From Limnobacter sp. CACIAM 66H1 (lineage in GTDB: Bacteria > Pseudomonadota > Gammaproteobacteria > Burkholderiales > Burkholderiaceae_B): 64,000 bases of DNA. A model generated the notes under the pieces. That model was not told the origin of the DNA and searched no databases. It saw nothing but the letters and a program-made list of their open reading frames with translations. A program made the translations under genes and the position numbers. The DNA is taken from the NCBI RefSeq assembly GCF_001601825.1, contig NZ_LUJK01000003.1, positions 1 to 64,000 of the forward strand. The letters run 5' to 3'. Below are positions 34,141 through 37,280 of the stretch, piece after piece (position 1 is the stretch's first letter; the number at the start of each line of letters is the position of its first letter).

Positions 34141-34168
34141 TCAGTGATTTAATCAAGCGAGTTTGAGC

Positions 34169-35410
34169 ATGACAACAGCGATTCAATTTCCAACACAGAT
34201 CGGTACACCTTTGGCTGCAAACGCCGTCAAAGTGATGTTGCTGGGCAGTGGTGAGCTGGGCAAAGAAGTGATCATCGCCTTTCAGCGTCTGGGTGTTGAG
34301 GTTATTGCAGTGGACCGCTACCCCAATGCGCCAGGGCACCAGGTTGCGCATCGCTTTCATGTAATCGACATGACCAATGCCAACGCATTGAAGGCCTTGA
34401 TTGCACAAGAGCGTCCCCACATTGTGGTGCCGGAAATTGAAGCAATTGCGACCCCTGCCCTGAAAGAACTTGAGGCTGAAGGCGTGGTGCGTGTGGTGCC
34501 TACAGCCAATGCGGCTTGGCTGACCATGAACCGTGAAGGAATTCGTCGCCTGGCTGCTGAGGAATTGAATTTAAGTTGCTCGCACTATGCTTTTGCGGAT
34601 GATTTTGAAACCCTGAAGATGGCTGTAGAAAAAGGCGTTCATGGCAAAAAGCCGGTGGGCTACCCCTGCATCATCAAGCCTGTGATGTCATCCTCCGGAA
34701 AAGGGCAATCCAAGGTGGATAATGCAAGCCAACTTGAAGCAGCGTGGGATTACGCGGGTAGCGCCGGGCGTGTCAACTCAGGGCGGGTTATCGCCGAGTC
34801 GCTGATCGAATTCGAGTATGAAATCACTCTGTTGACTGTGCGTGCCCGCAACTCCAAAAGTGGCGCAATTGAAACCAGTTATTGTGAGCCAGTGGGTCAT
34901 ATTCAGGTAAGCGGCGATTATGTTGAAAGCTGGCAACCCCAAACCATGAACGCAAAGGCTTTGGATGAGGCCCGTAAAATGGCAGACCAGGTAACCACCG
35001 CTTTGGGTGGCACCGGTTTGTTTGGCGTTGAAATGTTTGTAAAAGGCGATCAGGTTTGGTTTTCTGAGGTGAGCCCTCGCCCTCACGACACCGGCATGGT
35101 CACCATGATTACGCAGTGGCAAAATGAATTTGAATTGCATGCACGTGCCATTCTGGGTTTGCCTGTTGACACCAGCTTGAAAACACCGGGCGCCAGTGCA
35201 GTGATTTATGGCGGTTTAGACAAAGTGGGCATCGCATTTGAAGGCGTGGCCGATGCCTTGGCCGAGCCCGGCACGGATGTGCGTTTGTTTGGTAAACCCG
35301 AGTCGTTTGTGAAACGACGAATGGGTGTTGCCTTGGCGCGTGATACAGATGTGGAAAAAGCCCGTGCGAAGGCCAAGCGGGTTGCTGCGAAGGTGAAGCC
35401 AGTTGGTTAA
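34169..35410 (+). CDS. purT: Formate-dependent phosphoribosylglycinamide formyltransferase (GAR transformylase 2)
   Basis: Makes formyl-GAR in purine biosynthesis from formate and ATP, without folate. 413 aa from ATG at 34169 (the track's TTG at 34163 is less likely). ATP-grasp protein. N-terminal domain: [19 protein letters not shown] and [21 protein letters not shown] site: [17 protein letters not shown]. Metal ligands: [20 protein letters not shown] then PHDTGMVT. Last gene before the structured element. Confidence 0.95.
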
Positions 35411-35485
35411 CTTGCTCGGCGTTTCGGGAATGCGCATGGCGTTGTTGATTACGCTGGTCTGATGGGGCTGCACATGGTATTGCCC

Positions 35486-35623
35486 GTCTGCCTTGATCAA
35501 GTCGAATTCCCCTGTTCGAAACTGGCACGGGGCATGCGAAACGCGAGCGCGTCTTCGCATCGACCTTGCAGGTCGCCCCTTGCTGCGTTCCAAACCGGGC
35601 GACTTGATCTTGAATCGGCAGAC
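35486..35623. other. Structured non-coding element (nested inverted repeats)
   Basis: A 138-base multi-branched fold between the convergent 3' ends of purT and ybiT. Outer stem: GTCTGCC (35486-35492) with GGCAGAC (35617-35623), continuing GATCAAGTCG (35495-35504) with CGACTTGATC (35600-35609). A GGGG/CCCC stem (35529-35532/35576-35579) encloses two hairpins: ATGCGAAACGC-GAGC-GCGTcTTCGCAT (35534-35560, one bulge) and CGACCT-TGC-AGGTCG (35561-35575). No T-run follows, so it is not a simple terminator. ORFs over it look like chance. The 271-base gap 35411-35681 holds nothing else. Confidence 0.65.
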
Positions 35624-35681
35624 TGAGCAAAACCATAAGCATCCCCGCCAATTCAGTATCTCTACCAGCAGCACTGTTCTA

Positions 35682-37280
35682 TCAATTTAGCCCCAAACTC
35701 TCGCGGTATTCTTCGTAGGTACCGCGGTAATCGGTAATGCCGTCTTCACGCATTTCAAAAATTCTCGTGGCAATGCCAGAAACAAACTGGCGGTCATGTG
35801 ACACCACAAACACTGTGCCTTCGTATTTCTCCAGTGCATATTGAAGCGACTCGATCGACTCCATGTCCAGGTGGTTCGTAGGCTCGTCCAGCAGCAACAC
35901 ATTGTGACGCCCCAGCATCAGGCGACCAAACACCAGTCGGTTTTTCTCACCACCTGAACACACTTTCACCTGCTTGGAAATTTCGTCATTCGAGAACAGC
36001 AAGCGCCCCAGAATGCCGCGAATGGCTTGATCGTCGTCGCCGTCCTGGGCAAAGCGCTCGGTCCATTCACGCAAATTCAAAGGCACATTGAATTCATCGC
36101 TTACGTCTTGTGCCATGTAACCCAGGTCTGCATTCTCTGACCACTTTACTTCACCATAAGTTGGCTCCAAAGCCTTGGCCAGCAGCTTCAGTAGTGTGGT
36201 TTTACCCATGCCGTTGGCACCCACGATACCCACTTTGTCGCCAGCTTCCACCATGATGGAAAAATCGCGAATCACTTTGTTATCGCCGTAAGCCAAACTG
36301 ACGTTGTCGAGTTCAACAGCCAAACGATGCATCTTCTTTTTTTGTTCAAAGCGAATGAAGGGGTTTTGACGTGACGATGGCTTAAGCACCACTGTTTCCT
36401 GTTTGATTTTCTCGATCTGCTTTTGACGTGATGTCGCCTGACGCGCCTTCGATTTGTTGGCTGCAAAACGGCGTACAAAGTCTTGCAGATCGGAAATACG
36501 TTCTTTGGCACGCGCATTGGATGCTTGTGCTCGTTCGCGTGCCTGGGCTGCAGCCAGCATGTAATCGTCGTAATTACCGGGTACTACTTGCAATGTACCG
36601 TAATCCAGATCAGCCATGTGGGTGCACACTTCATTGAGAAAGTGGCGGTCGTGGCTGATGATGATCATGGTGCTCTCATACTGGTTTAGTACGTTTTCCA
36701 GCCAGGCAATCGTATTGATATCCAGGTTGTTGGTGGGTTCATCCAGCAACAGCACATCAGGTTTCGAGAACAGGGCTTGTGCCAGAAGCACCCGCAGCTT
36801 CCAGCCTGGGGCAATTTCACTCATTGGGCCATTGTGGTTTTCAAGCGGAATACCCGCACCCAGCAGCAACTCACCTGCCCGGGCCTCGGCTTCGTAGCCG
36901 CCGAATTCGGCATACACCGCTTCAAGGTCAGCTGCGCGCATGTAGTCGTCGTCGGTGGCTTCGGGGTTCGCATACAAGGCATCGCGTTCCGTCATTGCAG
37001 CCCACATTTCCTTGTGGCCCATCATGACCACATCCAGCACGCGGTGTTCTTCAAACGCAAATTGATCCTGGCTTAACTTTCCCAGCCGCACATTGGGCTC
37101 GATCACTACAGTGCCGCTGCTGGGCTCCAGGTCGCCACCCAGAATTTTCATGAAAGTGGATTTGCCGCAGCCGTTTGCGCCAATCAAACCATAGCGGTTG
37201 CCATCGCCAAATTTGGCATTGATATTTTCAAAAAGCGGCTTGGCGCCGAACTGCATGGTGATATTGGCTGCGGTGAGCAT
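35682..37280 (-). CDS. ybiT: ABC-F family ATPase (YbiT-like)
   Basis: Soluble twin-ATPase that acts on the ribosome; YbiT group. 532 aa with two ABC domains joined by a charged linker ([19 protein letters not shown]). Walker [10 protein letters not shown] and GANGMGKTT. The first signature is the YbiT-type [18 protein letters not shown], the second [16 protein letters not shown]. Walker [14 protein letters not shown] and [13 protein letters not shown]. No membrane domain. Ends with a short tail [10 protein letters not shown]. Ribosome factor by family knowledge. Confidence 0.93.

Follow-up and report, generated by a model that had tools for sequence, protein, structure and literature searches.

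The large palindrome between purT and a ybiT-like gene in Limnobacter sp. CACIAM 66H1 is one copy of a Limnobacter-specific interspersed palindrome family (family A, about 130-200 bp). The family is apparently undescribed: literature searches by title, abstract and term, with subscription journals mostly outside their coverage, returned no Limnobacter repeats of this type. It is multicopy and genus-restricted, has been gained, lost and inverted at orthologous sites, and sits at gene 3' ends, mostly convergent ones. Its fold is kept while the sequence changes, through paired changes, and constraint falls on the strand opposite the adjacent upstream gene. From these sequence patterns we give a probability of about 0.45 to the reading that family A is a once-mobile or recombining non-autonomous repeat whose retained copies may act as RNA hairpin barriers at gene ends. 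Interspersed palindromes in bacteria are usually deemed junk or dependants of RAYTs; the Limnobacter family has no recognisable helper, and its paired-change evidence for a fold, its strand bias and its occupation of the same junctions across species make it a testable case of parasite versus working gene-end part.

The purT/ybiT copy and its fold

In the window (the whole 64,000-nucleotide stretch analysed), purT, encoding the formate-dependent GAR transformylase (34163..35410, + strand; Pfam ATP-grasp and PurT_C), converges with a gene for a YbiT-like ABC-F ATPase (35682..37280, - strand; Pfam ABC_tran and ABC_tran_Xtn) across a spacer of 271 nt. The element was first reported at 35486..35623 on the + strand, sense to purT, and belongs to subfamily F1 of family A. 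Arm-to-arm alignment places the full palindrome at about 35464-35646, or ~183 bp, which exceeds the 138 nt first reported; the left outer arm, GGGGCTGCACATGGTATTGCCCGTCT with the GTCT of the 7-bp stem, occupies 35464..35489 (+), and the right outer arm, AGACTGAGCAAAACCATAAGCATCCCC, occupies 35620..35646 (+). The core between them (35490..35619, +) matches the family A covariance model, R1, end to end at 133 bits. This modelled element lies 79 nt from the purT stop and 62 nt from the stop of the YbiT-like gene. There are no tRNA or tmRNA genes in the window.

All the pairings proposed in the initial annotation stand. The 7-bp outer stem pairs GTCTGCC (35486-35492) with GGCAGAC (35617-35623), the 10-bp outer stem pairs GATCAAGTCG with CGACTTGATC, and GGGG (35529-35532) pairs with CCCC (35576-35579) to close a three-way junction (35529..35579) around two hairpins. 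Hairpin A (ATGCGAAACGC-GAGC-GCGTCTTCGCAT, 35534..35560) has 11 bp, one bulged C and the four-base loop GAGC, a loop whose sequence varies among copies; hairpin B (CGACCT-TGC-AGGTCG, 35561..35575) has a strongly covarying stem and a loop that reads GCA (GNA) on the - strand. The alternative fold suggested earlier, in which CCCC at 35509-35512 would compete for the GGGG, finds no place in the predicted structure: CCC within 35509-35512 pairs instead with a GGG adjoining the CGACTTGATC arm, a helix kept in the other subfamilies. The spacer had also been described as far more structured than usual, and the fold is well beyond chance, with minimum free energies for the 138-nt palindrome of -66.2 kcal/mol on the + strand (z -6.1) and -73.6 kcal/mol on the - strand (z -8.1), and none of 200 dinucleotide shuffles folding as well on either strand. 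The better-folding strand here is the mRNA strand of the YbiT-like gene.

Copies, covariation and sister families

BLASTN with the element gave 14 matches in this genome, matches in most congeners and none in 44 genomes of other genera. The covariance model, built from 36 copies, extends this to 16 full-length matches in this genome, amply supplying the second copy on which the initial annotation had made its reading depend, and to 1-30 matches in 13 of 17 Limnobacter genomes. The boundary between matches and nothing is sharp: family A is missing from G003, G011, G015 and G016, and G005 has one copy. Among 269 genomes of the taxonomic family, the model matched Limnobacter only and none of 42 other genera, and exact motif matches in GTDB contigs fell in Limnobacter and in unclassified MAG contigs. 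The hairpin-A motif was not found in viral contigs, and a phage origin was rejected on that ground. In all, 64 copies were fetched and read; further copies were counted only.

The window copy's subfamily, F1, and subfamilies F2 and F3 share a common core and carry arms of unrelated sequence that nevertheless pair; a fourth, F4, is prevalent in G010, and whole genomes are dominated by single subfamilies. Sequence conservation is highest at the centre and lowest at the ends. On both sides of several G010 copies (L116, L103, L106 and L111), the flanks hold outward ~60-nt repeats of arm sequence, as if the palindrome were growing by addition of paired arm copies.

The covariation among relatives that had been anticipated is present. 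In the family A alignment of 36 copies, 98.3% of cells are paired, and 84 are double-changed; shuffles give 24.8 and slid structures no more than 19, though the slid control somewhat overstates the contrast, the alignment itself having been the source of the predicted structure. Five of the six pairs of hairpin B covary. Particular imperfections are conserved across families as well, namely the bulge of hairpin A, a one-sided TTGAAT loop and the T..C ends of the hairpin B loop.

A sister family, family B, is built alike, from a long stem, a one-sided TTGAA loop, a CCC/GGG helix and a three-way junction with two hairpins, and has its own excess of double-changed cells (29 against 7.3 in shuffles). 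Its model detects the window's family A copy from end to end, with the strand agreeing (30.1 bits, E 7.6e-6). Family B has 38 copies in this genome, 18-87 in most carriers and two in G005, and its presence and absence across the 17 genomes is identical to that of family A, G003, G011, G015 and G016 lacking both. Many family A copies stand head to head with a family B copy across a convergent spacer, while the window copy is single. There is probably a third isostructural sister, family C: ~195-bp palindromes whose inner hairpins read AACGC...GCGTCTTGCGGAGCCGC face F3 copies of family A (L118:3185-3379; L117:3192-3387; L119:1172-1367 and 2568-2763; L036:2148-2361).

Near lysS, two inverted F3 copies ~700 bp apart are kept in five species (L027:1876-2728, also L028-L031 and L122). 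The pair flanks a 142-aa ORF without a Pfam match, a probable lipoprotein, with lysS on one side and a transglutaminase gene on the other; given this content, the pair was rejected as the ends of a RAYT transposon.

Strand constraint and site history

Of the two strands, the one opposite the adjacent same-strand gene is the more stable in 62 of 63 copies, by a median of 12 kcal/mol; in the window copy this constrained strand is the minus strand. Hairpin-B loops read GN(N)A on the constrained strand in 52 of 60 cases and in none on the other. When each pair is counted once, would-be G-U mismatches on the constrained strand outnumber the reverse by 90 to 52 (p 0.002), a modest bias; a first count of 162 to 28 had scored conserved positions repeatedly, and the smaller figures are those relied on. 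As a check on mutation bias, substitutions in paired columns were compared by direction and are balanced (101 vs 94), so the bias lies in which mismatches persist. Family B is biased in the same direction. The strand preference persists when folding energies are computed with DNA parameters (62 of 64), and thus suits folded RNA and folded single-stranded DNA alike.

Forty-four of the 64 family A copies lie between convergent genes, whereas convergent junctions make up 7 of the 60 in the window, and in nearly every copy the model starts 39-178 nt beyond the end of a same-strand gene (gene calls around the copies come from a simple codon-score method). Such a location would fit the role of transcript-end stabiliser that had been among the possibilities raised for this element. 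The orientation rule is broken by an orthologous copy that is antisense to the nearest gene end (L040:1767-1899 and L124:2989-3121).

The copies are not independent: clustered by similarity of the flanking ORFs on either side, the 64 reduce to 24 sites, and an inference of independent insertions from copy number was dropped accordingly. Sixteen of these sites are found in at least two genomes, 15 of the 20 fetched G010 copies occupy sites that are also filled in other species, and a site filled by F1 or F2 in one species may hold F4 in another. Shared sites with differing arm sequences look like old sites with within-genome homogenisation, that is, like concerted evolution; the alternative would be recurrent insertion under very strict targeting.

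Two junctions display the range of states. The purT/ybiT junction holds the element in G000, G014 and G002, an inverted copy in G008 and a remnant in G012; G010 and G007 have a different family A copy plus a family B copy, and the site is empty, with spacers of 12-16 nt, in G006, G013, G015 and G016. The G004 spacer (L049, G004:C13) is 1059 nt long, an inserted coding sequence seemingly replacing the element, and the G016 PurT match (L056, G016:C8:87688-88920) includes one TAA. At ppiD/esterase an F1 copy is found in G000, G008, G002 and G004 and an inverted one in G014; G012, G006 and G001 have remnants, G009, G010 and G007 have family A plus family B, and G005, G013, G015 and G016 are empty. 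G000 and G008 seem to carry one head-to-head pair in opposite orientations. In some element-free congeners the purT/ybiT or ppiD/esterase junction holds ordinary terminator-like hairpins.

Known palindromes and competing explanations

As a kind, the element is an interspersed palindrome of the YPAL/ERIC type: 100-200 bp, multicopy, intergenic and lineage-restricted, with filled and empty sites. YPAL (RU-2) of Yersinia is the closest described kind, likened here by description and not by direct sequence comparison. It is about 168 bp, intergenic, restricted at the genus level, not A+T-rich and without TA ends; it adjoins dyad symmetry, has filled and empty sites and may affect the stability of upstream mRNA (PMC2229807). 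The Limnobacter repeat differs in its unrelated host, in that no target duplication was found, and in its several isostructural sister families, head-to-head pairs and interspecies sites with differing arms. ERIC (IRU, RU-1) and other bacterial MITEs share the size of 100-200 bp, the predicted long stem-loop transcripts, the intergenic location and the tens of copies, and ERIC at gene 3' ends can affect mRNA (PMC2229807, PMC10969869); the TA-ended inverted repeats and target duplications typical of these elements were not found in the Limnobacter element. Every copy does have long inverted arms, differing in sequence among subfamilies, and the purT/ybiT and ppiD/esterase flanks are too diverged for clean placement of junctions. 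Correia (NEMIS) elements of Neisseria offer folded RNA at gene borders, with RNase III processing as a plausible model (PMC2229807, PMC10969869); NEMIS have conserved 24-bp inverted repeats and target duplications, whereas Limnobacter arms differ between subfamilies.

The suggestion of a REP/BIME-like mobile palindrome came close. The element is dispersed and multicopy, often paired head to head with a second family, and present or absent at orthologous sites, and REPs, BIMEs and REPINs are likewise extragenic palindromes of alternating orientation found mainly near 3' ends or between convergent genes (PMC2817692, PMC3733652). It is not a REP, however: its units are about 130-200 bp (~183 bp for the window copy) rather than 20-40, it has no GTAG/CGTC foot, and 16 of 17 Limnobacter genomes, this one included, lack a RAYT (PF01797, Y1 transposase), the exception being G009. 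As REPs prefer 3' ends and convergent spacers (PMC3733652), the Limnobacter element may work like a REP without being one.

On the reading favoured here, family A would have spread as a non-autonomous mobile or recombining repeat, and its retained copies would act as RNA hairpin barriers. Transcription of the constrained strand would run antisense into the adjacent gene, and RNA of that strand could be halted or trimmed at the element, which, as a stop or an exonuclease block, would keep convergent transcripts separated. The barrier formed by the window copy would then lie about 60 nt beyond the stop codon of the YbiT-like gene, in its 3' UTR. Several observations pull against an RNA barrier. 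Some copies lie downstream of the adjacent gene's ordinary terminator (e.g. L033, L109 and L112), so that gene's transcript may not reach them, and at co-directional sites no known gene transcribes the constrained strand. In-place flips of single copies (G008 at purT, G014 at ppiD), together with the apparently reversed pair, indicate that orientation is not fixed, and remnants and empty sites without a replacement structure mark the element as dispensable there. A more ambitious version, which we regard as doubtful, would have at least two, probably three, isostructural gene-end families whose positions are held while their arms are rewritten jointly in each genome and their antisense-ward strand is constrained; these would be insulators of convergent transcription, maintained and homogenised by a putative non-RAYT helper.

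The main rival, somewhat less probable than the RNA barrier though a serious possibility, is a purely selfish non-autonomous element, one strand of which folds as single-stranded DNA for transposition or recombination by a putative enzyme, gene ends being tolerated landing sites and the host gaining nothing. The variety of states at two sites (empty, filled, inverted, decayed), the dominance of single subfamilies in whole genomes and the persistence of the strand preference under DNA parameters would all follow, as would the single presence pattern of families A and B, which a common helper would give. Yet no helper emerged from searches of the RAYT/Y1, integron integrase and reverse transcriptase families, all three being rejected as mobilisers on distributions that do not match the element's; no target duplication is definable; and the 15 of 20 G010 copies at interspecies sites would be odd for a recent parasite unless its targeting were very strict. 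The paired changes could also be a by-product of quasi-palindrome correction, by template switching in an inverted repeat, with no selection for the fold. Arms of unrelated sequence that are each nearly perfectly paired, and G010 arms that extend outward as paired repeats, are what such switching would produce, but it would erase the specific imperfections conserved across families and predicts no strand bias, and we consider it improbable.

Conventional identities fare worse. That the element is a small RNA gene, as had been proposed, with its own promoter is very unlikely: its fold is very stable and its loops are conserved, but there is no promoter-like site, Rfam gave no relevant match, and the upstream sequence outside the arms is not conserved. 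Slightly less credible still is an ordinary intrinsic terminator for purT or the YbiT-like gene. The position between convergent genes would suit one, as would the terminator-like hairpins at the same junction in element-free congeners, but neither strand has a T-tract, as the initial annotation had seen, the sole terminator-like match is a weak one within shuffle expectation, and several copies stand behind a normal terminator. Intergenic self-pairing DNA in Limnobacter is best masked as repeat before small RNAs or terminators are annotated.

Integron attC sites fold from the bottom strand and are located 3' of genes. The element has the same polarity, its constrained strand being opposite the adjacent gene, and some Limnobacter carry intact integron integrases. 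On inspection, however, no core boxes were seen in the arms, and copies lie outside cassette arrays, at housekeeping loci in conserved order. Nor is the element linked to an integrase: G015, with an integrase fragment, is free of elements, and in the element-rich G000 and G008 no integrase match exceeds the curated cut-off. The chance that the repeat is an attC site is accordingly close to negligible. The intact integrase genes lie at G010:C1:2438434-2439375 and G002:C45:16399-17340, and partial or broken ones occur in G001, G009 and G015.
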